Shown: one piece after another, positions 25,641 through 54,074 of the stretch
How the letters are laid out: the number at the start of each line of letters is the position of its first letter
Numbering within the stretch: the stretch's first letter is position 1
Assembly: GCF_000801105.2 (NCBI RefSeq)
Contig: NC_079519.1
Coordinates: forward strand, 3,842,668-3,906,667
Length of the DNA stretch: 64,000 bases
Source of the DNA: Raphanus sativus
Lineage: Eukaryota; Streptophyta; Magnoliopsida; Brassicales; Brassicaceae
Direction of reading: 5' to 3'
Notes under the pieces: generated by a model
Told to the model about the DNA's origin: nothing
Databases searched by the model: none
What the model saw: only the letters and a program-made list of their open reading frames with translations
Translations under genes and position numbers: made by a program

Positions 25641-26030
25641 CTAGATCTTGACCCGCCTAACCGGGCGGGTATTTATTTTATGTTTTTAGTTTTTTTATTT
25701 ATAAATGATATATTTGCAATATTTAAACATAAATTTAGATTGAAATTTAACATTTGTAGTTATAATAAAAATTAAAAGTTAAAAAAAATATTTTGATATA
25801 AATTTTAAATTCCTAATTAAAATAATATAGAGATGAGTCATAATTTTTTCTAATTCCAAAATCTTAGCATTCTTAATAACAAATAAAATAATTTTTAAAT
25901 ATATAAACATATTTGAAAGTAAAATAAATTTGTTAAAAAAAATCTTACGCCATTGTTGTTTATTTCTATAGTTTGACCCGTGGCCGTATAAATATTTGCT
26001 TTCACTTCAATTTTTTTCTTTGTTCTAATG

Positions 26031-26074
<44 letters not shown>

Positions 26075-26590
26075 TATAAATTAATATGTATTACATAATT
26101 GTTAGTATAACATTTTAAAACAATTTTTTTATATATTACTTAAAATAATTATATTATGGGATTTTTAATCGTCTATTATATTATAGTGTATCATATAAAA
26201 ATATAATATTTATAACTAATTGGATTTATATTATAAAAGTGTTATACTAACAATTTATAAATAAAATATTTTATTTTTTATCTATATGATATATAAATTG
26301 ATTTTGATGTGTGATTTTTATTTTATTTTTTTATTGATAAATATTGAAAAATATTAAATGTTAACAAAAAATATATTAGAAAATATATTTTGGTTAAGTT
26401 TATTCTATTAAAGAAATCTATCATTTAAATCAGGAAAATACATTAAATACTTAAATCTATCATCTAAATAAGAAAAATACAAAATTCTCTATTATCTTTA
26501 TTACCAAACAAAATTGAATTTTTTCAAAGACTCTTACTAAACAAAAGTTAAAGTATCTATTTTATTTCCCAAATAAATAACCCGCGTCTT
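25641..26590 (-). mobile_element. Helitron, non-autonomous, related to the one at 34949
   Basis: On the minus strand the 3' end is clear: stem ACCCGCC / GGCGGGT (25664-25670 and 25651-25657) and CTAG (25644-25641) followed by T. The body matches the element at 34949-35965 in order, including TTTGACCCGTG-CCGTATAA. The 5' end is not recognisable, so the right limit is approximate. The insertion cuts the arm of the inverted-repeat element ending at 25640. Confidence 0.6.
26034..26071. repeat. (AT)n microsatellite
   Basis: About 19 AT dinucleotides inside the Helitron; the sister Helitron at 34949 has only a short AT run at the same place. Confidence 0.95.
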
Positions 26591-31764: not shown

Positions 31765-33547
31765 CCTACTGATGCTGTTAGTTATGGAGATATTTTATGT
31801 AAATTCTGATTCAGTGGTCACTTATTCTTACGGGGAGAAACATAACATACGTATTTGTTCATGTGTCTGACCTAGAGTTCTTAATTCTTCTTGGCAGAGC
31901 TCCCTTGTGGACATTCCTATGAAGAATTACTACAGATATGTCTTACCCAATACGGTATGAAAGATCTTTAAATTACATGGCGAACCGGTTTTGTTCCACA
32001 TTCCCTGATCAAATACTTATTTTTTTTTCTCAGGACGATTACAGCAGTACAAACTTTGATATAGATGGGCCCTAGGCATTTTTGGCAAGTATGCCATTAT
32101 CCAAGACACTTACCATGAATCTTGACGTTCCAGAGCCATGGCTTGTTGAACCAGTAATTGCCATGTATGATTTTTCCCCTAAAAAGAAAATGAGATTATG
32201 TTGTTCTTTTTGCTCGAAGTTTTCTCAGTGTGCGTTAAATGAATTTTTGAGCCATCTTATTTTTGGCTTATTCATAACTTTCTACTTTCTTTCCTCTCTT
32301 CCGGATTTGTCCATGTCCAGTCACGATCTGGACAACATTTTGCTTGAGAACCTGGGAGATACCACTACACTGCAGGCAGTTTTTGAGGTTGAATCTCTTG
32401 TCCTTACAGGTTAGCTTTTCTAAACTTACTATTCTACGCTGGTAGGATACTGTTCATTTTATTTATTGACATAATCCTTGCGCAGGTCATTGCTCGGAAA
32501 AGGATCATGAGGCTCCTATTAAAAGAATTTTAAGTATATCGTGTGCACTAAGAGTTTTAAGTATATTATGCGAAGAGAAAACTTTGATATATAATATTTT
32601 GAACCATTCGGTTTCTGATGCCTAGACACTGCATATGACAGATATGAGCGTTTCCTTAAGATCATGATTCTTAGTGTCCTGAAGAACACTAATCGTCCTG
32701 TAAATTCTGGTTCATAAAGAATTATCTTTCTCCTCAATTTAAGGTTTGTTCCTTTTCTTCTTGGTATACACGTAAGTCTGGTGTTTGTGTCTATTTTTGT
32801 TAACCACATCAACTTAATGCTTATCGCATTCTACTCTTGCAGGATGTGATTCCACATATGGCACAAGAATATTATTTTGAGTACGAGCTGATTAGTGATT
32901 ACGTACAAATGGCCTTCCTGGTTGCATAAACAGAAAGAAAAAAGCAACGAATTATTTGGGCCTACAAAGTCCTTTTCCTTGATGTTATATTTCCTCTCTC
33001 ATTGGAAAAGGTACGGCTGATCATTTGATGTTTTCATTTGTTACCTGCGATTTTTATGCTTGGAATATGTCAGAATAAGACATTCAACACGCTGCTAGTG
33101 TAAGACATTCTACACGTATTCTGTATGTTATATTTGTCGACGCGGATCAAATTATAAGGACAGACATGGGCGAACTGTACGATATGGATATAAAAGGAAG
33201 ACCTCTCGCGTATACTCCTTTTTGTGACAACAACAAGGAAATGGATGGCTATCGGTTTTGGAGACAGGTAACCACTTATCTGTTCTTTTTGTAGGGCTAA
33301 TTGGTTTCCTTACTAACATTCTCATTTACTTGGGACAGGGTTTCTGGAGAGAACATTTACGTGGTAGGCCATACCATATCAGGTAGACCAACGAACTTCT
33401 CTTGAACCTTGATAAGTTTCTGCTATTTCCATTATTGATGTGTGTTGTTTTTGTAGTGCTCTGTACGTTGTTGACTTGGTTAAATTCCGAGAGACGGCGG
33501 CAGGAGACGCTTAGCAAGGATCCAAACAGTTTGTCCAATCTAGATCA
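30262..33547 (+). pseudogene. UGGT (EBS1-like) pseudogene, internally deleted
   Basis: Exon remnants match the ER folding sensor UDP-glucose:glycoprotein glucosyltransferase: about 30262-30401 ([15 protein letters not shown]), 30537-30607, 30826-30922, 30999-31111 ([20 protein letters not shown]), then a jump over several hundred residues to 31251-31352 ([11 protein letters not shown]), 31446-31590 ([20 protein letters not shown]), 31898-31954, 32034-32168, 32321-32409 ([20 protein letters not shown]), about 32637-32743, 32844-33010, about 33128-33268 (glucosyltransferase core: [20 protein letters not shown]), 33340-33383 and 33457-33547. A TAG follows GP at about 32072, and frameshifts lie at about 31540, 32690 and 33510. 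The N-terminus and part of the catalytic C-terminus are missing. Confidence 0.85.
31714..31761. repeat. Interrupted (AT)n microsatellite
   Basis: AT dinucleotides with one TAATAAAT interruption, in a UGGT intron. Confidence 0.9.
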
Positions 33548-34948
33548 GGCAAGTTGTTCAATATGGCTTCTACATTTGGTCTAGATAGCACCACCATTTG
33601 ATGTTCGACGTTTAACGTTAGGCGATTGGTGATTGGCTAAAGACCTTTGTGTTGAACCCAAAGAAAAAAAAGTGACATCTTTTTGCTTCCCCTTCGTCAC
33701 TAGGTCAAAAGCCAAGTAGCGACTCGAGAGTGAAAGCGACGGCAAGAGATGGCGGAGGAGGAGAAAGAGTGGGAGGACTGGTGCTTCATCTGCAAAGAGG
33801 GTGGGAACCTAATGCTCTGCGACTACAAGTCAGTCTCTACTCTCTCTCTTGACCTCTTGATAATCTGAGAAGATCTGCATTAAAAATCAAAACTTTCGTT
33901 ATAAATCAGACCATTGTTGTCACGTCTAGTGAAAAATGTATGCATCTATCCCAATCTCAATTGTTGCTCTGGTCATTTCAGGGACTGTCCGAAAGCTTAT
34001 CATGCCTCTTGCGTTGAAAATGATATTTCAGCTGGATAGAGTGACGATTCTTCTTATATCTGCGGTAAAAAAGTGCTAATCTTTCTCTATTTATATATAT
34101 ATTCATTGCAATATATTTACTATAATCATTTTGTAATTAGCACACGGTTCTTTGAGCTTCCGTCACTTGTCTCCTCTTGATTAGTTTAGTGTGTTTTATG
34201 TCGGGAAATGAGAGACATTGAAGGAGGATATAGCTTGAGATTCTTCTTATTTAATTATTATGCATATAAAGTTTATTTCTTTATGCTTGCAGAGAGCCTT
34301 CGCTATCTCAAAGTAATAACCTTTGGTTTCTTTTTTGTTCTGTCTCTTTAGCAAAAAATTATTGAACTGAGTCTACAATATTTGAAAATTAATATATTTC
34401 CTTGTTAGATTCTTGGGTCTGTTAGAGCTTACTGTATTTGTCAGACATGCTTTATGAACAGATTAGTGTTTCATTGTGAATTTGTTAATTGCAGAATGGC
34501 ACAGTTGCTACTTGTGTGGGAAGAAACCGAAGCTACTCTGTCTCTGTTGCCCAAATTCTGTATGTGAAGGCTGTGTCACTCATGCTGAGTTTATTCAACT
34601 TAGAGAGAATAAAGGGTTATGCAACCAGTGCCAGGAGTATGTGGTTGTTTTAGAAGAGATTCAAAAGTATGATGCTGCTGAGGTATGTTTCTAACCATAA
34701 CGTATCAAAGTTATTTCATTTTTTACCCAATTTTTTATACTAAGCCTCTCCTTATCTTAAAATATTGATAGCCATATGTTGCAGCTAATTAATGTGTTTA
34801 GGAAATGATAAGATGAATCTATTTACATTTTGGTTGTCTTGAATGGGATGAAATGTATATATTCATAAGGGTTAGCATATGTTTAAACTTGTAATGTGTA
34901 ATCAATTTTCCTTTACCTAAAGTGATAACAGAAATATTAATTACTTTA

Positions 34949-35965
34949 CTAGACCTTGATGAATTTGTTTATTTTCTATTTTTAAATTTTGTGTTTATAT
35001 TAAATGATGAATTTGTAATATTTGCACATAAATTCCGATTGAAAATTATTTTTTTCAGTTATAATAAAACTTAAAATTAAAAGCTTAATAAAATATTTTG
35101 ATACATAATTTAAATTTCTTAATAAAAATAATATAGAGGTGGGTTATATTTTTTTCCAATTTCAAAATCTTAGCATACCAATAAAATAAATTTATAAATA
35201 CATAAAATATATAAACCATATTTGGAACAATATTTCTATCAAAATAAATTTGTTAAAGAAAAATAATTTAGCGATGTTGTTGTTTATTTCTAGAGTTTGA
35301 CCCGTGACCGTATAATATTTGCTTTCATTTTAAATTTTTATTTGTACCAATGGTATAATATATATATTAAAATGTATTACATAATTATTAATGAAACATT
35401 TTAAAACATAACAATTTTATTTATTACGTTGAATAATTATATTTTGTGATTTTGATAGTCTATTATATCACCGTGTATTACATAAACAAATCCAACATTT
35501 ATAACTTATTATATTTATATTATGTAACCATTATACTAATAATATATGAATAAATTATTTATATTTTATTTATATATTATATAAATTGATTATGATGTGT
35601 GATTTTTATTTTATTATTTATACCAATAAATATTAAAAATATTTAACATGTTAAAACAAAGTATATTGGGAAATCTATTTTCGTAAATATTTGATTAAGA
35701 AAATCTATTATTTAAATTAGAAAAAGATAAGCATACTTAAATATAGGTTCAATAAAGACAAGTATACTTAAATATAGGAAAAGACAAGCATACTTAAATA
35801 TAGGTTCAATAAAGACAACTATAATTAAGGAAAATGCATTTATAAATCAGAAAAGACAACTATAATTAAGGAAAATTAATTTATTACTTCAGTGGCATTC
35901 TAATGTAAATAACTACAAAAACTTAGGGGTATTTTCAAAGTGTACTTCTATTTTAATAATATAGA
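34949..35965 (-). mobile_element. Non-autonomous Helitron, 1.0 kb
   Basis: On the minus strand it begins TCTATATTATTAAAATAGAA (from 35965), the classic crucifer Helitron start, preceded by A, and ends CTAG (34952-34949) followed by T. The terminal hairpin has been lost, unlike its relative at 25641. It lies within an intron of the PHD-SWIB pseudogene. No coding capacity. Confidence 0.75.
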
Positions 35966-36298
35966 TGTCTATGCCTAAGGCTTATTCTGACATTGAAAAT
36001 GTTATTTTCTCTGCTTAACATTTCCTTTACTGGTTTGTAGGATAAGCTCGACCTGACTGATACAAATACATTTGAGTGTTGGGAGATGGCAAAACAACAA
36101 GTCACAGAACATAGTCGCCAAGCTGAAGCACGCAGTTCACAAAGGAAAGTTGCCAAGTTAAAGCACAAAGATGATCGCAGATCTTCACTCAATGATGCAT
36201 GCACTTCAAAGTCACAGAACATAGTCGCCAAGCTGAAGCACGCAGTTGATAGTAAGCATCCACTATCTGACCACAAAGTTGATGATGCAGAAGATTGT

Positions 36299-36368
36299 AA
36301 AACGGTGGGCAAAAACAAGAACATGGTGTTTATCAAACGGTGGGCAAAAACAAGAACATGGTGTTTAT
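36299..36368 (+). repeat. 35-bp tandem duplication in coding sequence
   Basis: The unit starting AACGGTGGGCAAAAACAAGA and ending GTGTTTATCA occurs twice in succession. Since 35 is not a multiple of three, it shifts the SWIB reading frame of the PHD-SWIB pseudogene. Confidence 0.9.
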
Positions 36369-37126
36369 CAGATGGGGTTCAAAGCCCCTCATTGATTTCC
36401 TAACATCAATAGGGGAAGATACCAGACGTGCAATGTCACAGCGTAGATTGCACGTCTACGTTGTGATGAGAAGCTGTACTCTATCTTCGGGAAGAGGTCT
36501 GTGAAACAAAGAAAGATTCATAGACTTTTAGATGCTCACTTCACAGACAACCTTGAGCAGTTGGAATGTAACACACGTTCGGAACGTGGCTTCAGTGGAA
36601 AGAATGAAAGGGTTTCCCTGCCGTTCAAGAAGAAGCAGAGAGTAGAAAGGTCACATGAGAAGGAAGTGAAACCTCAAATCTGGCCAACCAGACCTGTGAA
36701 AATGAAGTGAAACCTGAAATGAAGCCAACGGACACTTGTGTAAAGGAAGCGAAACCTGAAATGCGGCCAACTGGTTACGCTGCAATCAATGCAGATAATG
36801 GAAAGCGTGTTTATCTGCGGAAGAGTTTAGTTCTAGAGTTATTGAAGAAGCATAAAGAGGGAAAAAGGTAGTGGGGAAAGTGAAGAATGCCCTAGGGACC
36901 GTATAGCGTACCAGATCTTGCAGGTTACAGGTAAACCAGGACTTGTGATTTATTATTAGATTGCTTTCTATACTAAGCTTTGCTGTTTCTTCTTTCTATC
37001 TTCTAGATTTTAGCTAATTGTTCTTTTCATCTGTTTCATGACCGTTCCATCACAATCACACTTCCAGTTACACCTTCCCTTTTTTGCGTTTTCTGTAGGC
37101 ATTAAAACTGCTGATGACCAAAGTCA

Positions 37127-37283
37127 GGGCCTGCTTCTCTGTCTCTGTTGCCCACATTCTGTATGTGAAGGTTGTGTTAGTCGTGCTGAGTTTATTCACC
37201 TGAAAGAGAATAAATGGTTATGCAATCAGTGCCAGGAGTATGTTGTTATTTTAGAAGAGATTCAAAAGTATGATGCTGCTGGG
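37127..37283 (+). pseudogene. Second zinc finger of PHD-SWIB gene, fused into the Plus3 exon
   Basis: The exon 37099-37283 begins with Plus3 sequence (GIKTADDQSQG) and switches without an intron to [20 protein letters not shown] and QECVV-like Cys-rich finger sequence, ending at a GT donor in the same place as the normal finger exon. So this exon is a hybrid of exon 5 and exon 3 of the same gene family, probably made by recombination between tandem copies. The reading frame is open through the junction. Confidence 0.7.
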
Positions 37284-37612
37284 GTATGTTTCAAACCATA
37301 ACGTATCAAAGTTATTTCCTTTTTGTACAAAGCCTCTTTTAGTCTTGAAATTTTGATAGCCATCTGTTGTAGACACACTAATGTGTTTAGGAATGATAAG
37401 ACGAATCTACTGCATATTTGGTGTCTTGAATGGGTTGATAATTGTCATCTTTTCTTTAATCAGAAATGTGATATATTAACTGTCTATACCTAAAACTTTT
37501 TTTTCCTGAAATTTAAAATGTTATTCTTCTCTGCTTAACCTTTCTGTTGATGTGTTTCAATAGTTAAATTCATTTTACCTTAACTCCTTCACCATCTTCA
37601 TATGTAGGTGGG

Positions 37613-38079: not shown

Positions 38080-39168
38080 CAGCTTCAGACGATGTGAAGT
38101 ATGTGACTCATCAAGGAATGGAATTGTTACATGAGGGAGTCCGTTACCTGGTTAGTTCTCGTACTAATAGCTTCCTGTGTCTTGTGAACTTGGGCTTGAA
38201 TCTGGTGCAAATGCAATCATTTCAAATGGAAGGGTAAGTAAACCACTTCTTATCTTTCTCTGGTCAATATATATTTTACTATATACCTACTCTTAGTAAC
38301 TGTTTCAATTGTATCATTGGTAGGTGAGTTTTCCTGTGGATGAGAGGACATTTATGAGTCATGATTTGCACCTTCTTGAGTCAATGGAGATCAATCGAAG
38401 GGTAAAAGCCCTGTTCAAGAAATTATTGAAGGGTGTGGATCCTGATTGACTGACTAGGTACCCGCTTTTCATGCTTTACTGACTAGTCTTGTGCTCTTAC
38501 TGCTTGTATTTTAATATTTGCTTTATCTCTTCTCATGTGCGTTTTGAAAATAGCTGGTAGATATAGTTCTTCTAGGAATAGTCCCCCTTTAACGGTTTGA
38601 AAAATGGCTGATAGAAGATTGTTTTTCTTGTTTGTCACACTTGCAGTACATATTTTAGCCATGTCTTCATGCTTGGGTCATCTGCAATGTTAACATGGGA
38701 CCGTAGTTCTGAAAGTGCACGATTTGAGGTGTTGAGTTCGGAATACAGGTATGCATACAGGGTTTCTGGAGAGAACATTTACGTGGTAGGCCATACTAGA
38801 CCAACTAACTTCACTGGAGAGACAGCGGCAGGAGATTATCTAAGAGACGCTTAGCAAGGATCCAAACAGTTTATCCAATCTAAGATCAGGCAAGTTGTTC
38901 AATATGGCTTCTACATTTGGTCTAGCACCACCATTTGATGTTCGCACTATACTCTGAAATCTTTATAACACTCTTGTGCTGGTTTCGGATTATCTTCTTG
39001 AGTTCTAGGCTCAAATTGATTGGCATGAGTTTATATCGTTTCAGGATCTTCCTAATTATGCTCAGCACACTGTTCCTATGTTTTCACTTCCCCAAGAGAG
39101 GTTGTGGTGTGGGAACGCCACCAAATCCATGGCCAGAACAATCGATTTATGCAATGATAATAGCTTCA
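38080..39168 (+). pseudogene. Second UGGT (EBS1-like) fragment
   Basis: It starts inside the exon shared with DUF2359 (SDDVKYVTHQGMELLHEGVR), then CELGLESGANAIISNGR before a GT at 38234, an exon at about 38323-38458 ([20 protein letters not shown]), 38646-38748 ([17 protein letters not shown]) and a block at 38758-39168 holding GFWREHLRGRPY, TLSKDPN and [18 protein letters not shown] remnants. Frameshifts are present in several exons, and the long central part is missing. Parts are near-identical to the first UGGT relic: 38644-38757 matches 31250-31365, and 38825-38941 matches 33486-33605. Large segments must therefore have been duplicated after both copies were already degraded. Confidence 0.8.
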
Positions 39169-41117: not shown

Positions 41118-43112
41118 TTAAGCTTTTTCAAAGAAGGTTTGGAAATCTTCATGCTTACTGAAGAGATTCCTGGTGATCATATGAACTTCCATCAGCAAGC
41201 ATGGGAATTTTCTTGCAAAATATTCCCCCACTTTCGTTCGGCTGCCTCCAACGATGGCCTAACACAACACAGACATTCATATTAGGTTTTGTAAAATGCT
41301 TTTGATATGTAGGTTGTAGAAGACAAACCTTGACATCGCCAGGAAATTTCTCTTCTTTTACGTGTACAAGAGTATTACGCACGAACCGTACCAAATCAAT
41401 CAAATGTCGACGGTTGTAGCGAGGACCGTTTTCCTCTGCTTCTTTCTCGTCCATGAAAGATACTAATTTCTCATCTAGTACCTCATCCCATTCATATTTT
41501 ATACCCTTGAAAACCTCTTTTTCGCTCTTATTCACCAACATTATTAAGCTTGCGTACTCCTTACTTTGGGTTTTCATTGTCCGAAAGCTTTCACTAGCTC
41601 GCTCTAAAAGAAGGTTCCTCTTATCTTGCGTCCAAAAGAACGGATGAGCAAGAGCTTCTTTTGCAGTCGGACTGCAAATAGTTAAACACTTGTGAGACAA
41701 AAGTTTAACTCAGTACTGGATAATAAGAAAAGGGAAGATGACACTACCGGAGCTCGTAGTTGAAATTAGCCAGCGCCTTCCAAAGATAATAAGCTTCTTG
41801 TGGTAGAAGTTTAAGTTGGTAAACAGTAGTCTGGTCCATCGTTCTTGTCTTGAAATCTGCTTCATCTTTGTACAAAGGTCTACGCGCTAGCATGTATACC
41901 ATAGTGAGACCAAGTGCGTAAACATCGTCTTCAATCCCTTGATAGGTTGTCTTCGACGACTTACGAGGAGTTTGCTCTGGGTCTGGCCAAATCCCTGTTA
42001 CACCTGAAAGTTTACAGAGAGAATAACACTTATTTGTTGTCAAATTCTTACATTAAATGTGTTGATAAAAAAAAAACTTACTCATGGATTTGTTAGTGCG
42101 ATGCCTGCTCAAGCTAAGATCACCGATCTTTGCAGCTACATGATCACCATTATCCTTAGATACTATAAGGACGGTCTCGGGGTTCAGATTGCCATGGATA
42201 TAACACATATCGTGCATATCCGCAACACCCTGAACCAAATCTCTGATGAGAGATACGAGGAGACTTGTTGGATACCCCGTTCCTTCTTCCCACAGCTTAT
42301 TCTTGCTCTTAAACTCCTTTAGAAAAGAGATCTGCTTGTCAGCTAGAGATTCTCTGGCCACTGCTACTTCACTTGAACAAAATCTAATCAGGTCTCCTAT
42401 GCTGCACTCCCATTTTTCAAAACACATGTACATGTAAGTAATGTCGCTTTCCCGCCCATAGAATCGGAGTATGTACTCGGTGTCACATGCATAATGGTTA
42501 GCCATCTCCATAAAAGCACTGGAAGCAACATCTGAACCCTCATCACGATCATCATCTTTTAGATGCTTCCTATTAACGGACACAATACGAGCATCATATT
42601 TACCCTCAAAGACTTGAATCCCGTCACTGTATGTAACATGTGAATCTAGCTCAACACCCAACTTGCCAATTTTCAAATTAGTCTTTTCTACTGGTTTTGG
42701 CACATCTTGAGTTCCTGAGAGAGCAGTCTCATCATCTTCAGCAGGATCATTCATATCCTTGTCATCTTCACCAGGATCATTCATATCCATATCCTTTGGA
42801 TCCTTGTTCTCTGGGTTCATTGTCTTCTTGTTCTTCTTCTTTTTATTTTGCTTCTTCTTTGCATTCTTTGCATCCTTCATTTTCTTGCACCAAATGAGAC
42901 CTTTAGCAGCGACACGTAAACAAACTCCAGAGAGAACACCCATTAAAAACACCCAGTAGTCTCGTTTTTCACTGCTAAGAAAAACAAAAACATACATATA
43001 AAGAGCTGCTTATAAACATTCATTCAATTTATTTTTTTTTTAAAAGAGGATAGAACACATACCGATTGTTAGTCTCTCGGGTATCATCTCCGTTGCAAAG
43101 AGAAAACGACAT
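41118..43112 (-). CDS. IRE1-like protein without luminal sensor (kinase-like plus KEN RNase domain)
   Basis: Five exons: 43112-43063, 42974-42082, 42003-41748, 41671-41329 and 41258-41118, all GT-AG in phase, give 560 residues. A short N-terminus leads to one membrane segment (about 24-45), a Lys-rich then Asp-rich cytosolic linker, a kinase-like domain (about 119-398) and a KEN-type RNase domain (about 400-560, LRPTAKEALAHPFFW at its border). IRE1 proteins sit in the ER membrane and splice or cut RNA in the unfolded protein response. Arabidopsis IRE1C likewise lacks the sensor. The kinase motifs are changed: the HRD position reads HGN (277-279), DFG/DMG reads DLS (302-304), and no clear VAIK Lys is seen (VSVN at 148-151). 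RNase residues Tyr485, Asn499 and His503 line up with the human catalytic set, but the Lys next to that Asn is Thr500. No stop or frameshift was found. An in-frame path continues upstream into the SWIB region, so the start at 43112 is a choice. Confidence 0.75.
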
Positions 43113-46100
43113 GAAGAGAGTGTAATAGATGATGCATCGAGGGAGTATGTGTCGGATCAGAGAAAAACACCTCCAATGGTCTAATGATGTCCCCACTACC
43201 TTCTCCCCAAAGTTCTCGTTATGCTTCTTCAATAACTCTAGAACTAAGCTCCTAAGCAGATAAACAAGCTTTATATTCTCCTCTGCGTTGATCGTAGCAA
43301 AACCGGTTTGATCAGGTTTCAGTTCCTTGTCATAAGTTTCGTCAGTTGAGCTTTCTATGCTCTGCTTCTTCTTGCACTTGCACGGCATGAAAACACTTTG
43401 ATTCTTTCCGCTGAAGCCACGTTCCAACTGCTCAAGGTTGTCTGTGAAGTGAGCATCTAAAAGTCTATGAATCTTTCTTTGTTTCACAGACCTCTTCCTG
43501 AAGATAGAGTACAGCTTCTCATCACAGCGAACTTTCTTCTTCTTTCTATGATCAAGCAGGTTTTCCTGACGAATGTATTTGTTGATAATAGACTCCACGC
43601 TACGTTCTGACATGGCATGTCTGGTATCTTCCCCTATTGATGTTAGGAAATCAATAAGGGACTTTGAACACCATCTGATAAGCACTGTATTCTTGTTTTT
43701 CTCCACCGTTTTACAATCTTCTGCATCATCATCAACTGTGTCCTTCAGCTTGGCGACTTGCTTCTGTGACTTTGAAGTGTGTGCAGCATTGAGTGAAGAA
43801 GATCTGCGGACATCTTTGTGCCTTAACTTGGTAACTTTCCTTTGTGAACTTTTGGCACCAAGGACATCCTCTTGTTGTTTTGCTAAGTTCGGTTGTGTGC
43901 CAAATACATTGTGATCATGTTTTGTGATATCTCCAGAAACGTTACAGGCCTCTCCTCCTGATTTCCCTTCTCCACAACAGCTCTCAGCCGAGCATGCGCA
44001 AGTCTCACACGTACTGACATCAGAGGTACATGACGGCTTTGTCTCCTCCTCTCGGACTTTTGTTGCTACATTTGTAGAGCTTAGTGTCTCGGTTATCCAT
44101 ATTCTCTCTTCTTTGCCCTCCATTCCCGTGTAAGGTGCAAAAGCCTCAAAGACACATGTTAGGTCACGGATTCGTTGCTTCGCTATCTTACTTTGTACCT
44201 TCTTCCTCTTTGCTGCTGGGGTCCCTATGTCAAAAATGGGCACATCCGAGAAACATTGTTTAAAAACCGATACAACACTTGCCAAATACATACATACATA
44301 CATACATGACCAAAATCCTTGAGCTTACCTGGTCTGGGGTAAAACTGAGGTTTCACTTCCTTCTCACAAGTCTTGGTTGCCCAGATTTGAGGTTTCACTT
44401 CCTTCTCATAAGTTTTCTCATGTGACCTTTCTATTCTCTGCTTCTTCTTCCACGGCTGGGAAACCCTTTCACTCATTCCAATGAAGCCACGGTCCGAACG
44501 TGTGTTACATTCTAACGGCTCAAGGTTGTCTTTGAAGTGAGCATCTAAAAGTCTATGAATCTTTCTTTGTTTCACAGACCCCTTCCCGAAGATAGAATAC
44601 AGCTTCTCATCCCAACGAACTTTCTTCTTCTTTATCTGAGGTATGTATTTGAGGATAACAGACTCCACGTTGTGCTGTGACATTGCACGTCTTGTATCTT
44701 CCCCTATTGATGTCAGGAAGTCAATGAGCGGCTTTGAACACCATCTGATAAACACCGTGTTCTTGTTTTTGCCCACCGGTTTATAATCTTCTGCATCATC
44801 ATCAACTGTGTGCTTCAGCTTGGCGACTTGCTTCTGTGACTTTGAAGTGTATGCATCGTTGAGTGGAGATCTGGGAGCATCTTTGTGGTCAGACAGCGAA
44901 TGCTTGCGATCAACTGTGTGCTTCAGCTTGGCGACTTGATTCCGTGACTTTGAAGTGTGTGCAGAATCATTGAGTGAAGATCTGGGAGCATATTTGTGCC
45001 TTAACTTGGTAACTTTCCTTTGTGAACTTTTGGCGCGAAGGACATCTTCAAAAGTGATGTCTTCTTGCTTTTTTGCTATCTCCCAACATTCGAGAAACAG
45101 GCACTCAAATGTAACTGTATCTGTCAGGTCGAGCTTATCCTGCAAACCAGTAGAGTAAGGTTGAGCAGAGAAGAATAACACTTCAAGTGTCATGAAAAAA
45201 GTAGTTAAACATTTGTGTAATCACACTTTTTTTTAAAGGAAAAAATGACTATATATAACAAGTTTTAACATATGCTAATCCTTGCGGATATATATTTCAT
45301 TCCATTCAAGACATCAGATTCATCTATCATTTCCTAAACACATTAAGTTATCAAAACTTCAAGATAAATAGAGGCTTAGGCGTCAAAATCAGGGTTAAAA
45401 TGAAATAATTTTGATATATATAATGGTTAGAAACATACCCCAGCAGTATCATACTTTTGAATCTCTTCCAAAACAACCACATACTCCTGGCACTGGTTGC
45501 ATAACCCTTTATTCGGTTTGAGGTGAACAAACTCAGCATGGGTAACACACCCTTCACATACGGAATGTGGGCAACAAAGACAGAGCAGCTTAGGTCTCTT
45601 CCCACACAAGTAGCAACTGTGCCATTCTGAAAATTAACAAATTCACAATCAAAACAATAATCCCTCCATAAAGCAAAGCATTACAAATACAGTAATATAT
45701 ACGGACGTTGTCAAATTTGTGTTTGTAAACCCTTAACAGACCCAAAAACACCTAACAAGGTAAGACATTATTAGTTTTCGAAGATTATAGACTTAATTCA
45801 ATCACCTTTGGCTAAAGAGACAGACAAAAGAAAATGACCCAAAGGTTGTTACTTTGAGTTAGAAATGGCTCTCTGCTAGCATAAAGAAAGAAACTTATAC
45901 GCAATGATTTTTTTTTTAAAGAAGAAGAAGCTTGAAAAAAAACAAAAAGAAACTTATATGTCTCTCATATCCCGACATAAAAACCATTAAACTAATCAAG
46001 AAGAGACATGTGACGGAAGCTCAAAGATGCGTGCCAATTACAAAATAATTAGGAATGAAGGTAAAAAGATTAGCAACTTTTACCGCAGATATAAGAATCA

Positions 46101-48064
46101 TCGCTCTCTTCTGCTGCGTTATTATAATTGTCAACACAAGAGGCATAAGGTTTCACTTCCTTCTCATGCGACCTTTCTATTCTCTGCTTCTTCTTGCACG
46201 GCTGGGAAACCCTTTCAGTCTTTCCACGGTCCGAACGTGTGATACATTCCAACTCCTCAGTGTTGTCTTTGAAGTGAGCATCTAAAAGTCTATGAATCTT
46301 TCTTTGTTTCACAGACCTCTTCCCGAAGATAGAATACAGCTTCTCATCGCAACGAACTTTCTTCTTCTTTCTATGATCAAGCAGGTTTTCCTGACGAATG
46401 TATTTGTTGATAATAGACTCCACGCTACGTTCTGACATCGCATCTCTGGTATCTTCCCCTATTGATGTTAGGAAATCAATGAGGGGCTTTGAACCCCATC
46501 TGATAAACACCATGTTCTTGTTTTTGCCCACCGTTTTATAATCTTCCGCATCATCAACTTTGTGGTCAGATAGTGGATACTTACGACCAACTGCGTGGTT
46601 CAGCTTGGCGACTCGATTATGTGACTTTGAAGTGTGTGCTGCATCATTGAGTGAAGAAGATCTGGGAGCATCTTTGTGCTTTAACTTGGTAACTTTCCTT
46701 TGTGAACTTTTGGCGCAAAGGACATCTTCAAAAGTGATATCTTCTTGCTTTTTTGCTATCTCCCAACACTCGAGAAACAGGCACTCAAATGTATTCGTAT
46801 CTGTCAGGTCGAGTTTATCCTGCAAATTAACCAGCAGAGTAAGGTTAAGCAGAGAAGAATAACACTTCAAAAATGTCATGAAAAAAAGTATCAGGTGTAG
46901 ACATAAAGTAGTTAACATTTGTGTTATCGCTTTTATTTAAAGAAAAAATGACTATAAATAACAAGTTTTAACATATGCTACATTTCATTCCATTCAAGAC
47001 ATCAGATTCATCTATCATTCCCTAAAACACATTAAGTAACTGCAACAGACGGGCTATCAAAACTTTCAATACAAGAAGAGGCTTAGTATCAAAAAATCAG
47101 GGGTTAAAATGAAATAATTTTGATATATATATAATGGTTAGAAACATACCCCAGCAGCATCATACTTTTGAATCTCTTCCAAAACAACCACATACTCCTG
47201 GCACTGATTGCATAACCCTCTATTCGGTTTGAGGTGAATAAACTCAGCATGGTTAACACAGCCTTCACATACAGAACGTGGGCAACAAAGACAGAGCAGC
47301 TTCGGTCTCTTCCCACACAAGTAGCAACTGTGCCATTCTGCAATTAACAAAATTCACAATCAAACACTAATCCCTCCATAGAGCAAGTATGACAAATACA
47401 GTAATCTATACGAACAGTTGTCAAATTTGTGTTTGTAAACTCTTAACAGACCCAAGAACACCTAACAAGGTAAGACATTATTAGTTTACGAAGATTATAG
47501 ACTCGATTCAATTACCTTTGGCTAAAGAGACAGACAAAAAAAAAAATGACCCAAAAGGTTGTTACTTTGAGTTAGGAATGGCTCTCTGCTAGCATAAAGA
47601 AAGAAACTTATACGTATAATGGATTTTTAGAGGCTATCGAGGGGTGGGGTATACATCACACGGTCTTAGAGTGCAACTCTGATGCATTTTCAATAGCTGA
47701 CTGGACCTCTACCTAATGGTTCCCTTAGGGCTTCTCTATATCTATCTAGCTCTCATGAAGGTAAAAAGATTAGCAATTTTTACCGCAGATATAGGAATCG
47801 TCACTCTCTTCTGCTGAGTTATTATAATTGTCAACACAAGAGGCATGATAAGCTTTCGGACAGTCCCTGAAACGAAAGCACAGTGAGGTTGAGTTAGATG
47901 CATACATTTAAATTAGACGTGACAACAATGTTCACATTTATTACGGAAAATTTTTGATTTTTAAGATTATCAAGAGAGACTGACTTGTAGTCACAGAGCA
48001 TTAAGCTACCACCGTCTTTGCAGACGAAGCACCAGTCTTCCCACAATTTCTCCTTCTTCGCCAT
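43063..48064 (-). CDS. Tandemly duplicated PHD-SWIB gene, open and in frame with the IRE1-like gene
   Basis: Exons 48064-47985, 47866-47784, 47337-47150, 46819-46084, 45626-45439, 45139-44329 and 44224-43063 are all GT-AG and in compatible phase. Order: PHD finger (about residues 9-54), Cys-rich finger (55-117), linker, SWIB 1 (about 220-305), half of a PHD finger, Cys-rich finger 2 (363-425), SWIB 2 (about 555-635), an unrecognised segment with a Cys cluster (696-810), SWIB 3 (about 880-960) and the first about 30 residues of Plus3 ([15 protein letters not shown]). SWIB domains ([20 protein letters not shown]) are p53-binding-like folds of chromatin proteins; relatives are plant PHD/SWIB/Plus3/GYF proteins. 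Plus3 is cut after KVVG, and about 80 bp later the IRE1-like ATG follows in the same frame. Joined, the product would be 1626 residues. It may be one chimeric gene, or two neighbours of which the first lost its end. Confidence 0.6.
43860..44224 (-). other. Unrecognised Cys-rich coding segment in the third SWIB module
   Basis: This part of exon 44224-43063 replaces the zinc-finger exon found in the other two modules. It starts [18 protein letters not shown] (basic, possible nuclear signal), passes [17 protein letters not shown] and then a cluster of seven Cys within about 35 residues ([20 protein letters not shown]). I do not recognise a family. It is open and in frame on both sides. Confidence 0.5.
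47620..47756. other. Foreign insertion in intron 2 of the PHD-SWIB gene
   Basis: The corresponding intron copies at 45900-46055 (minus) and 34130-34260 (plus) share sequence that is missing here; instead there is about 135 bp of unrelated DNA. One frame reads [20 protein letters not shown], which has the look of a LINE RNase H relic, but the match is weak. Confidence 0.4.
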
Positions 48065-48455: not shown

Positions 48456-48460
48456 GACAG

Positions 48461-49118
48461 TGTTGAGAAATTAGCAAAGAAGATCAAGACTAAGTTTGAG
48501 ACTAAGCTAGGAAAGTAACTGATGACGAGGCACAACTCACGTGACTTATTGGGATTGAAGGACCACAAGACTAGCTGTTGAGGTTCAGTCTGTTAAAGCA
48601 TATTTTGTCGGCTTCTCTGCAGGAAGTTAACGTTATGCGTCTTTAATGGGTCGTACGGATAGAGCATAGCCAGCTGGAGCATCCGAAGCGCATTAGGTCA
48701 AGTGTGAGTGAGTATATATATGTGTTTTAATTCAGAGAGATAGATAAGAGCAGAAAGAGAGCATTTATCAAAGTGTAAGCTTGTAAGTGTTTTTTTGAGT
48801 TTGTAAGCTACGTTCAAACCGAGACAGATACTGCAAAGGCCTTGAGGTTTAAATACACTTGTAAACTATGATCTAGTGGATTCTAGGAGACAGTTCCCGG
48901 CCCAGACTAACACCCTCGTTAACGGATGTAACTGGGTTAACAATCGCTTGAGTCTTGCTTTGTTTTCTTCTTCTTCACTCTGTTTTATTACTCTGTTCTC
49001 GAACTCTACTTTATAAATTCTGCTTCTTCATCGTAAGCGAGTAAAGTTGGAGTCTTGGTGAGTGTGTGTTGCAACAGGAAGGCTAAAGGAGACACCTTTA
49101 GGTGGGAGTTTCTTCACA
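48461..49118 (+). repeat. 5' LTR of the copia element
   Basis: Starts TGTTGAGAAATTAGC, ends TTTCTTCACA. Compared with the 3' LTR it lacks about 9 bp near 48512. Confidence 0.95.
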
Positions 49119-49119
49119 T

Positions 49120-49134
49120 ATTGGTATTAGAGCT
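49120..49134 (+). other. Primer binding site
   Basis: ATTGGTATTAGAGCT, a one-base variant of the tRNA-Met primer site TGGTATCAGAGC, begins two bases after the 5' LTR. Confidence 0.8.
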
Positions 49135-49166
49135 CAGGTTCTGAGTTTTGGTCTCTGTACGAGATC

Positions 49167-49990
49167 ATGTTGTCACCAAGAATCGAGATCGAGAAGTTCG
49201 ATGGCCATGGAGATTACATGTTATGGAAAGACAAACTCTTGGCACATATGGATCTTCAAGGGTTGAGCAAAGCCTTAGAAGAGTCTGATAAAGTCAAGGA
49301 GAAGGTTCGAGATCCAGATGAAACACCGGAAGAGAAGAAGGTAGCTGAAGAAAAGGAAGAAGCTTTAGCTGAGAAAATCAAAAAGGCCAGAAGTACCATC
49401 ATCCTGAGCGTCATTAACAGAGTTCTGAGGAAGACAAGAAAGGAAGAAATCGCTGCAGGGATGCTTAAAGCGTTAGACATGTTGTATCTCGCCAAAGCTC
49501 TCCCAAATCATTTTTATCTTAAGTAGAAGCTCTATGGGTTCAAGATGTCTGACAGTCTATCCATTGAAAGCAACATTGGTGAATTTCTACATCTTATAAC
49601 AGATCTTGAGAACATTGATGTTCAAGTACCCGACGAAGACCAAGCGATATTGCTTCTCATGTCTCTACCAAGACAGTTTGATCAACTGAGAGACACGTTG
49701 AGATACAGCACAGGGAGAACGACACTCACTCTGGATGAAGTAGTTGCTGCAATATACGCAAAGGAGCTTGAAAATGGTTCAAACTCAAAGGGGTCTAAAG
49801 GTGAAGCAGAAAGTCTATATGCTAAAGATAAAGGGGAATAGCGTGGAAGGTCAGACAATCGAGACAGAAACTCAAGGTCCAAGTGTTGGTCGTGTGGTGA
49901 AGAAGGACACTTCAAGGGATCTTGTCCAAACAAAGGCAAGTCCCAAAACAAACCAAAACACCAAGGGAGCGACAACAGAGGAGAGGCTGC
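49167..49990 (+). pseudogene. copia gag with zinc knuckle, interrupted
   Basis: From ATG 49167 the frame gives a copia Gag start (FDGHGDYMLWKDKLLAHMD). A TAG interrupts it at 49524. It continues in the same frame as a UBN2-type Gag region (LLMSLPRQFDQLRDTLRY), meets a second TAG at 49839, and then shows one CCHC zinc knuckle, CWSCGEEGHFKGSC, at 49884-49925. Gag would form the virus-like particle and bind the RNA. Part of the middle is shortened relative to usual copia Gag. Confidence 0.85.
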
Positions 49991-49991
49991 A

Positions 49992-52900
49992 ATGGTGAAA
50001 GGTAACAAGAACGAAGCTGCAGGTTTATATGTTCTGGAGGCTCTTTATTCAACAGACATAAATCTTGAGAATGAATGGGTTTTAGACACATGTTGCAGTT
50101 ATCATATGACGTACAAGGAGTGGTTTGAAACTCTAAGGGACGTCAGTGGAGGGCCAGTACGCATGGGGAACAAGACAACTTCAAAGGTCAGAGGTATATG
50201 AACTGTAAGGATCAAAAACGAAGACGGCTCAGTGTTTATGTTAATTGAAGTCAGATACATTCCAGAGATGGATCGGAATCTGCTGTTAGTGGGAACAATG
50301 GAAGAGCTTGGATACAGTTTTGAATCAAAAGAAGGCATCTTGAGTATCCATAAAGATAACAAAATTGTCTTAAAGGGAAAGAGACATGACAAACTGTATC
50401 TGCTACAAGGAAAACCTGAAGTTTGTCAGTCATATGCTGCTGAGAAGAAGGATGATGACACTATCTTGTGGCATCGGAGGCTAGGACACATGAGCCAGAA
50501 AAATCTCAGTTTATTGGTAAAGAAGCGACTACTGGATAGGAAGAAGGTTTCAGTGTTTGATATGTGTGAAGACTGCGTGTATGGGAAAGCAAAAAGGGTC
50601 AGTTTCTCAGTTGCAACTCATGATACTAAAGATAAGCTTGATTATGCCCACTCAGACTTGTGGGGAGCACTAGGTGTTCCATTCTCTCTTGGAAAGTGCC
50701 AGTACTTCATCTCTTTTATAGATGACTTCACGAGGAAGACATGGGTTTATTTCTTGAAACATAAGGATGAAGCATTTAACACTTTTGTAGAGTGGTGCAA
50801 CATGATTGAGAACCAAGCGGATAAAAAGCTGAAATTACTAAGAACCAACAACGGTCTTGAGTTTTGCAACACAAGATTTGATAACTTCTGCAAGGAGAAA
50901 GGCATTGTAAGGCACATGACTTGTGCTTACACTCCCCAGCAAAACGGAGTAGCTGAAAGGATGAACCGCACTATTCTAGAGAAAGTCAAAAGCATGTTAA
51001 GTGACTCAGGCTTACCTAGAATGTTTTGGGCAGAAGCTACACAGACTGCAGTTACACTGATCAATAAGACACCCTCTTCCGCAATCAAGTTTGAAATTCC
51101 AGACAAGAAGTGGACTGGAAGAGCACCAGTATACAGCTATTTGAGAAGAGTCGGCTGTGTCTGTTTTATTCATACAAGTGATGGGAAACTTAGTCCAAGG
51201 GCCAAGAAAGCAGTCCTACTGGGTTATCCTCCAGGAGTAAAAGGTTACAAAGTCTGGTTACTAGAAGAGAAGAAGTGTCAGATAAGCAGAAACGTAATCT
51301 TCCAAGAGAATATTGTCTATAAAGATGTCATTCAGAGAGGGAAACAAAAGGAAGGAGAACATTATGAGTCTGCAGAAGCAACATTTGACATAGATCTCGG
51401 AGAAGCAGGTGATATCAGTTCAGGTGGAGATATACAGAGTGATACAGAGGTCGCAGAACAGGGTCAGCAGGATGTTGAAAATCAAGAAAATGATGAACAT
51501 AATGTGGAGAATGATCACGACTCAGAACATGATCATGATTAGGAAGATGAGACCAGCGACTCACCTGAGAGCTATCACCTAGTCAGAGACAGAGAACGCA
51601 GAAAAGTTAGAGCCACTAGGAGGTTTGACATTGAAGGTTATTACAATGAAGACACTGATGATGAAGAAGATTGTTTTGATGCTGATTCCCTGATCACCAC
51701 AGTGGATGGTGACTTCAAAGAACCAACCAGTTACCAAGAAGCTAGAGAGGATAAAGACTGGAAATTCTGGAGTGGAGGTATGGATGAAGAGATGGAATCT
51801 CACAAAACAAACCACACATGGGATGTAGTTGACATACCGAAGGGACAACGCGTGATTGGTTGTAAGTGGGTGTACAAGAGGAAGAGTGGAATTCCAGGAG
51901 TTGAAAGACCAAGACACAAATCACGCCTTGTTGCAAAAGGTTATGCTCAAAGAGAGGGAATAGACTACACAGAGATCTTCTCACCAGTAGTAAGACACGT
52001 ATCTATAAGGATTCTTCTTACTATTGTTGTTGAGGAAGATCTAGAACTGGAGCAGCTTGATGTAAAAACAGCTTTCCTACACGGAGAGTTAGATGAAAAT
52101 ATCTACATGGAGATACCTGAAGGTTATGAAGGTCAGTTCAAGAAAGGTCAAGTCTGCTTACTGAGGAAAACTTTATACGGTTTAAAACAGGCACCAAGAA
52201 GATGGAATCAGAAGTTTGATGGGTTCATGGCTGAACTTAACTTTGTAAGAAGTTACATAGACAGTTGTGTGTACGTCAAGACATGTGAAGATGGCGCGAA
52301 AGTCTATCTACTGATTTATGTCGACGAGATGTTGGTGGCTGCAAAGGACAAGAAGTTAGTTCTGGAGTTGAAGAAGCAACTCAGTATGAAGTTTGAGATG
52401 AAGGATCTCGGCCCTGCCAAGAAAATTCTTGGGATTGAGATCAGGAGAGACAGAGCAAATGGGAAGCTATGGCTATCACATGAAGGTTACATGGAGAAAG
52501 TCTTAGAGACTTACAAGATGGAGCAATCCAAAGATGTTGTGACACCATTGGGTGCCCATATGAAGTTTCGCTCTGCTACAAAGGAACAGCTGCAAAAGGA
52601 TGAAGAGTACATGAGAACAGTTCCATATGCAAATGCAGTTGGAAGCTTGATGTACTCCATGATCTGTACAAGACCAGACTTGGCATATCCTGTGGGTATT
52701 ATCAGTAGATTCATGGGAAATCCTATCAAAGATCATTGGTTAGGAGTTAAATGGATCTTGAGGTACGTCAGAGGCTCTATGAAGATAAAACTCTGTTACA
52801 GGAAAGGATCTGATTTTGTGTTAAAAGGTTACTGCGATTCAGACTATGCAGCTGATCGTGATAAGAGAAGGTCAATCAGTGGAGTAGTATTTACTCTTGG

Positions 52901-53285
52901 TGGAAACACCATCAGTTGGAGATCAAGGCTACAGAAAGTGGTGACTCTTTCCACTACTGAAGCGGAATACTTGGCGATGAATGATGCATGAAAAGAAGCT
53001 ATGTGGCTTAAAGGTCTGCTAATGGATTTTGGATATGAACAGAAGTGTGTGGAGATCTTCTGTGACTCTCAGAGTGCGATTGCTCTATCCAAAAACAACG
53101 TGTATCATGAAAAAACAAAACACGTTGATACCAAGTATCACAAGATCAGAGAGATCATTGAGAAGGGTTTCTTGAAGGTGACGAAGATATCTACACTGAT
53201 CAACCCTGCAGATACCTTTACGAATATTGTACCAGTCAGTAAGTTCAAAGCTGCAATGGACTTGCTGATGGTCAAAACTGAGTAA
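49992..53285 (+). pseudogene. copia pol (protease, integrase, reverse transcriptase, RNase H), interrupted
   Basis: Protease: VLDTCCSYHM at about 50079-50109, where the Gly of the DTG/DSG triad is Cys. Integrase: HHCC-like HRRLGHMS and CEDCVYGK, then the DDE core with HSDLWGAL, RTNNGLEF (second Asp changed to Asn at 50847-50849) and NGVAERMNRT. Reverse transcriptase: GCKWVYKRK, LDVKTAFLHGELDENIYM, LYGLKQAPRRWNQKF and YVDEMLVA (second Asp of YVDD changed to Glu at 52326-52328). RNase H: GYCDSDYAAD, LSTTEAEY and KHVDTKYHKIRE. Stops at 50199, 51540 and 52989 break the frame. Three catalytic sites plus several stops are lost, so it cannot act on its own. Confidence 0.9.
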
Positions 53286-53390
53286 TCAAACTCAGGCTCC
53301 GGAAACTGGAATCCAAGAAACTAGATACTAAGAATCTATCTCTAACTCTCGGGTATAATCGTCTGCTTCAGTCTTGTTGATCTGTCTTTA

Positions 53391-53403
53391 CTAGGTGGAG
53401 ATT
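53391..53403 (+). other. Polypurine tract
   Basis: TAGGTGGAGATT directly before the 3' LTR, a typical copia tract for plus-strand priming. Confidence 0.65.
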
Positions 53404-54069
53404 TGTTGAGAAATTAGCAAAGAAGATCAAGACAAGTTTGAGACTAAGCTAGGCGTGAGGAGGAAGCAACTGATGACGAGGCACAACTCACGTGACTTAT
53501 TGGAATTGAAGGACCACAAGACCAGTTGTTGAGGCTCAATCTGTTAAAGCATATTTTGTCGGCTTCTCTGCAGGAAGTTAAAGTTATGCGTTTTTAATGG
53601 GTCGTATGGATGGAGCGTGGCCAGCTGGAGCATCTGAAGCGCATTAGGTCAATTGTGAGTGAGTATATATATGTGTCTTAGTTCAGAGAGATAGATAAGA
53701 GTAGAAAGAGAGTATTTATTAAAGTGTAAGCTTGTAAGTGTTTTTTTGAATTTGTAAGCTACGTTCAAATCGAGACAGGTACTGCAAAGGCCTTAAGGTT
53801 TAAATACACTTGTAAACTCTGATCTAGTGGATTTTGGGAGACAGTTCCCGGCCCAGACTAACATCCTCGTTAACGGGTATAACTGGGTTAACAATCGCTT
53901 GAGTCTTGCTCTGTTTTCTTTTTCTTCACTTTGTTTTATTACTCTGTTCTCGTACTCTGCTTTATAAACTCTGTTTTTTCATCGTAAGCGAATAAAATTG
54001 GAGTCTTGGTGAGTGTGTGTTGCAACATGAAGGCTAAAGGAGACACCTTTAGGTGGGAGTTTCTTCACA
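53404..54069 (+). repeat. 3' LTR of the copia element
   Basis: Starts TGTTGAGAAATTAGC and ends TTTCTTCACA, followed by the GACAG target duplication. Confidence 0.95.
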
Positions 54070-54074
54070 GACAG

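Follow-up and report, generated by a model that had tools for sequence, protein, structure and literature searches.

The window analyzed here is a stretch of 64,000 nucleotides of the radish (Raphanus sativus) contig NC_079519.1, and its minus strand carries the gene LOC130499804. In this gene, At5g08430-like PHD/SWIB modules, a fragment of a tRNA methylthiotransferase and a sensorless IRE1-like gene lie in one open frame. LOC130499804 is thus a real, previously annotated chimera of three gene families; in the open-licence literature listed, neither a description of it in print nor a paper on any SWIB-IRE1 fusion was found. The sequence is best explained by a young chimeric gene that is probably transcribed and is likely to encode a catalytically weakened PHD/SWIB-kinase/KEN product, a reading offered here with moderate confidence.

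A single open frame and its database record

The gene comprises eleven minus-strand exons (48064-47985, 47866-47784, 47337-47150, 46819-46084, 45626-45439, 45139-44329, 44224-43063, 42974-42082, 42003-41748, 41671-41329 and 41258-41118). These sum to 4881 nucleotides, the terminal TAA is the sole stop codon with none internal, and all ten introns are GT-AG. This structure had been proposed in a first-pass annotation of the letters alone, and it is confirmed by the exon model and by a protein database match, P0001 (Raphanus sativus "uncharacterized protein LOC130499804 isoform X2", 1625 residues), which is 100% identical to the predicted product along its full length (100% coverage). The first-pass annotation had pointed to Brassica, but this record is from radish. 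The sole difference between P0001 and the product predicted from the window is one codon (NNR-EK in P0001, NNR-SEK in the window), which reflects the distal rather than the proximal AG of a NAGNAG acceptor at 42975/42972. P0001 was possibly annotated on the same assembly and would then be no independent sequence. From the label "isoform X2" it would seem that transcript reads covering the intron before this acceptor were available to the annotators; however, that intron sits within the IRE1-like part, and the label is therefore no proof of a fused transcript.

Openness alone cannot fix the exon model, because of 41472 ways to combine neighboring GT and AG sites, 1024 leave the frame open; it is the homologous proteins and the agreement with P0001 that fix it. 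An alternative splice combination, also of 4881 nucleotides, was discarded since it was in the wrong frame.

Pfam matches to the product comprised three SWIB domains (2e-25), Pkinase at residues 1204-1478 (3.3e-19) and Ribonuc_2-5A/KEN at residues 1488-1623 (1.4e-16). The PHD domain fell just under the Pfam cut-off (23 vs 24 bits), as it did in P0014, an intact radish At5g08430-like paralog. A Plus-3 match was not found in the chimera, whereas a complete Plus-3 was matched in P0014. The in-frame succession of PHD, three SWIB domains, a Plus-3 domain cut at KVV, a membrane segment, a kinase-like domain and KEN, as first described, was upheld.

The homology searches were word-limited: 5 matches were listed from 4504 candidates for the whole product, 5 from 5788 in another search and 44 from 7988 scored in a third, with more candidates beyond. 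Among the matches listed, SWIB and Ribonuc_2-5A occur together only in P0001 and in P0002, a Brassica napus "unnamed protein product, partial", as read from a precomputed Pfam column that gives SWIB, kinase and KEN for P0002. The first-pass annotation knew of no protein with this architecture, but the P0001 record exists and P0002 combines SWIB, kinase and KEN; the absence of further SWIB/KEN fusions from word-limited searches is weak evidence. No ordinary plant IRE1 was among the 5 matches listed from the 5788 candidates of the word-limited search.

Parts and joins of the chimera

The N-terminal part of the product is built from two copies of an At5g08430-like gene, and a third SWIB domain follows further on. 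Residues 1-341 (module A) are 75% identical to residues 1-359 of P0014 and 81% identical to P0012, and modules B and C are 83% and 49% identical to P0014, respectively. The join between modules A and B falls inside exon 4, at YASCVDNY. PHD and SWIB are held in common with At5g08430-like PHD/SWIB/Plus-3 proteins; P0014 differs in its complete Plus-3, whereas the chimera has three SWIB domains and a Plus-3 that ends at KVV. Trees of the SWIB region place module B with P0014 (99/96 in both trees) and module C with B. napus P0002 (97/98 with 9 rows; 91/71 with 23 rows, these being 20 of the 44 proteins found plus modules A, B and C). The SWIB exon of module B also contains a 108-bp tandem repeat (1.8 copies, at 44801-44998), the unit of which is a multiple of 3.

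Only two partners had been recognized at first, and a third lies between modules B and C. For residues 690 to ~800, the match is to the C-terminal part of six proteins of the threonylcarbamoyladenosine tRNA methylthiotransferase type (52-62%), the motif QFYPRPG included. The piece is gapped at ITE/TLSS, where the TRAM-domain stretch is gone. None of the three Pfam domains UPF0004, Radical SAM and TRAM was matched in the chimera, which holds inter-domain and C-terminal methylthiotransferase pieces only. The join between the methylthiotransferase piece and the SWIB module, VFGT(Q/E), is common to the chimera and P0002.

The fusion point with the IRE1-like gene was located from two comparisons. 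P0006, an IRE1-like prediction without SWIB, opens MGTSSDHWTCLSLFRQILPSRCIIYLTLFFLLLSLCNGDDAGE (MGTSSDHW), and its Met1 aligns to a radish GTG codon at 43196-43194; P0002 also has Met at this position. On the other side, an inverted, broken PHD/SWIB copy elsewhere in the window (copy D) has AAGGTAGTGGGGA in common with the chimera and diverges directly after it, continuing as Plus-3. These observations together indicate that Plus-3 became joined to the IRE1-like gene through a short overlap and that the A of the ATG was lost. From the Met-Gly codons on the IRE1 side, we infer that the overlap was at least TGGG. No bases lie between the Plus-3 codons and IRE1-like codon 2, and the radish sequence therefore leaves no room for a polyadenylation site that would separate two genes. 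What had been taken for an IRE1-like 5' leader of about 80 bp is instead coding: in the alignment with P0006 it is a signal-peptide-like start that has lost its ATG, and the methionine at 43112 is an internal position, where the former signal peptide has a Leu in the alignment.

The order of parts in P0002 is radical-SAM, the methylthiotransferase/SWIB join, Plus-3 to KVV, a second methylthiotransferase tail, MGTSSHHW, and an IRE1-like transmembrane segment, kinase and KEN. The methylthiotransferase/SWIB join, the end of Plus-3 at KVV and the order of SWIB then IRE1-like part are as in the chimera. In contrast to the chimera, P0002 has the radical-SAM part in front, and its second methylthiotransferase tail separates KVV from MGTSSHHW; it has one SWIB and no PHD match, and its IRE1-like part is 49% identical to that of radish, in a model that is maybe chained. 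If the P0002 model is right, an earlier mosaic of like order looks to predate the split between Raphanus and Brassica. The last deletion, from KVV to IRE1-like codon 2, is known from radish only.

The IRE1-like tail

The best-scoring solved structures for the IRE1-like part are those of IRE1, and the layout of kinase then KEN is present. Alignment with yeast IRE1 placed HGN in the position of HRD and DLS in that of DFG in the radish kinase, and the VAVK lysine, read by eye, is an Asn in radish (VSVN) compared with VSVK in P0002 and P0006. In KEN, the Tyr, the Arg-Asn and the His are retained, whereas Thr takes the place of the Lys that follows Arg-Asn, as it also does (by eye) in P0002. The radish IRE1 half thus looks degenerate, and its kinase/KEN tail would be expected to be catalytically weak. 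Human K907, Arabidopsis K821 and the radish KEN Lys-to-Thr site are presumably one position. PMC4694804 describes the human IRE1 mutants Y892A and K907A as lacking RNase activity, PMC8203841 gives K907A as a mutation of the RNase active site, and in PMC6788458 K821A of Arabidopsis IRE1B serves as an RNase mutant with which mRNA decay was not restored.

No lumenal sensor Pfam match was found in the chimera, and ~20 residues separate the former signal peptide from the transmembrane segment. The hydropathy of the transmembrane segment is 1.72 (at residue 1092) vs 2.37 and 2.13 in relatives, and that of the former signal peptide is 1.22 (at residue 1054) vs 2.03 in P0006 and 2.16 in P0002. A lysine-rich stretch after the transmembrane segment favors a cytosolic kinase/KEN. 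A cytosolic N-terminal half would then require either that the weak segment insert too or that no insertion occur. An acidic linker of the IRE1-like part contains a 30-bp tandem repeat (1.9 copies, at 42732-42788).

By description, the radish part resembles Arabidopsis IRE1C and A. lyrata IRE1C-like, which passages of PMC6883098 and PMC6788458 present as sensorless proteins with a transmembrane segment, kinase and KEN. The IRE1C proteins are free-standing, whereas the radish IRE1-like part follows ~1040 residues of other origin and is degenerate at kinase and KEN residues.

Table. Positions in the window of the chimeric gene, its parts and neighboring elements
Feature	Position	Strand	Remarks
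Whole chimeric gene	41118..48064	minus	11 exons, 1626 codons, radish LOC130499804
Module A, At5g08430-like PHD + SWIB	46148..48064	minus	exons 1-3 and the bulk of exon 4; residues 1-341
Module B, second At5g08430-like copy	44348..46147	minus	residues 342 to ~690; starts mid-PHD (YASCVDNY)
tRNA methylthiotransferase piece	43911..44347	minus	exon 6 end (QFYPRPG), intron 44328-44225, exon 7 start
Module C, third SWIB + truncated Plus-3	43194..43886	minus	residues ~805-1041, ends KVV
Fusion point GTG GGG	43191..43196	minus	GTG replaces Met1 of IRE1-like relative P0006
Former signal-peptide-like N-terminus of IRE1-like gene, now internal	43063..43193	minus	
NAGNAG acceptor	42972..42975	minus	AGs at 42975/42972; P0001 takes distal AG
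IRE1-like transmembrane segment, degenerate kinase, KEN (Ribonuc_2-5A)	41118..42974	minus	exons 8-11
Inverted broken At5g08430-like copy (D)	33740..37440	plus	local control for decay and for Plus-3 sequence beyond KVV
Long terminal repeat (LTR) retroelement	48461..54069		TG...CA ends; GACAG 5-bp duplication at 48456-48460 and 54070-54074; LTRs 92.5% identical

Constraint, origin and alternative explanations

When modules A, B and C are compared in their SWIB exons, the lengths of all internal insertions and deletions are multiples of 3, with one exception of 17 nucleotides near the module end between B and C. Broken copy D adds gaps of 35, 40, 58, 7 and 1 nucleotides relative to the modules, and the introns of A and B differ by gaps of 1, 2, 4 and 20 nucleotides. 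The ratio of nonsynonymous to synonymous substitution rates (dN/dS, NG86) was 0.44 for A-B (bootstrap 0.26-0.80, 279 codons), 0.59 for B-C (0.38-0.93, 196 codons) and 0.74 for A-C (0.44-1.51, 178 codons). When the coding sequence of the chimera was evolved neutrally in silico, with substitutions only and no insertions or deletions, it stayed free of stops in 26 of 300 runs at 1% change per site, in 5 of 300 at 2%, and in 0 of 300 at both 3.5% and 7%. The modules were probably coding during most of their history, although constraint may have ended recently; the dN/dS, indel and simulation results say nothing on the time after the last join.

The locus is proposed to have arisen from an array of gene pieces on the same strand, through successive duplications and deletions at short overlaps, some of these events preceding the Raphanus/Brassica split. 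A radish-specific deletion would then have taken out everything between KVV and IRE1-like codon 2, an interval that corresponds to the methylthiotransferase tail in the B. napus prediction, and would have brought the IRE1-like exons under control of the PHD/SWIB promoter. The gene would likely yield a PHD/SWIB protein whose kinase/KEN tail is directed to a membrane and weakened in catalysis, and the role of this protein, if any, would be that of a non-catalytic binding or dimerizing protein rather than of a signaling RNase. As several introned gene pieces lie on one strand, an origin by Helitron or Pack-MULE was considered; it is not claimed.

Several points weigh against a functional young gene or against parts of its proposed history. 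The overlaps on the IRE1-like and methylthiotransferase sides were deduced from protein. The parents are located separately elsewhere and form one continuous frame in radish; however, the IRE1-like parent is represented by P0006 alone, a partial prediction, made on contigs no longer than 2757 bases, that ends before KEN (kinase match only) and seems to read through its first intron, and P0002, also a partial prediction, may have exons chained together. The dN/dS interval of A-C includes 1, and the modules may have been under constraint before the fusion, while still in separate genes. Relaxed selection is suggested by the two hydrophobic segments, both of which score below those of relatives, and the active-site losses would also fit a decaying gene. 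Loss of RNase activity is itself not certain, given the retained KEN Tyr, Arg-Asn and His, and the passage on human K907A also states that the protein was undetected in those cells, so its inactivity may reflect lack of protein (PMC4694804).

One alternative is that the locus is a recent pseudogene, i.e., a product of recombination that lies in a decaying region and has no function, the frame of which is by chance still open and was chained by gene predictors. We regard this as a serious possibility, though the less probable one. The broken state of the neighboring PHD/SWIB copy, the loss of the kinase lysine, the HRD Asp and the KEN Lys, the weakened hydrophobic segments, the A-C interval and the LTR element upstream are all consistent with it, and if the last join is very recent (at most 1% change), an open frame would be unsurprising (26 of 300). 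However, 1626 codons without a stop, inter-module indels that are nearly all in frame and the failure of every neutral run to stay open at 3.5% change argue against it.

In a further reading, the chimera could be an expressed and selected protein that couples a PHD/SWIB chromatin module to a KEN module at the endoplasmic reticulum membrane, the IRE1-like start codon having been swallowed and the signal peptide having become an internal hydrophobic segment. Such a protein could form a hairpin with both halves cytosolic, or signal peptidase could cut it at the old site to give two proteins from one frame; this reading appears unlikely.

Two transcription units, a PHD/SWIB gene and an IRE1-like part expressed from an internal promoter with its start at ATG 43112, are quite improbable. 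This ATG is in frame and is followed by the transmembrane segment and kinase/KEN, but the methionine at 43112 takes the place of a Leu within the former signal peptide, and the original Met1 of the IRE1-like gene is gone, with SWIB/Plus-3 coding exon immediately before its site, so the former promoter is not adjacent. An assembly artefact joining two loci, for which the repeat-rich region and the single contig given for P0001 might be cited, is scarcely credible, as the join lies within an exon and in frame and the order of SWIB then IRE1-like part recurs in B. napus P0002.

Further repeats surround the chimeric gene. A second partial copy of the PHD exon (37133-37442) is fused behind the Plus-3 region of broken copy D, and direct repeats at 33504-33607 and 38844-38944 (94% identical) lie on either side of copy D, a possible trace of duplication or insertion. 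A dispersed repeat occurs at 25672-26456 and 34968-35742 (77% identical), one copy being in an intron of the broken PHD/SWIB copy. The LTR retroelement lies ~400 bp upstream of the chimera ATG, as context and outside the product, and has long open reading frames on the plus strand at 50202-51539 and 51543-52988.

LOC130499804 offers a stepwise gene fusion that can be dissected, in which three gene families have been brought together by four joins and one internal deletion, all of them in frame. One of the joins passes through a start codon, and a differently arranged relative is present in Brassica napus. If the gene is expressed, it would test whether an internal signal peptide still directs membrane insertion or cleavage, and it would likewise test the tethering of a nuclear-type module to an IRE1-like tail.

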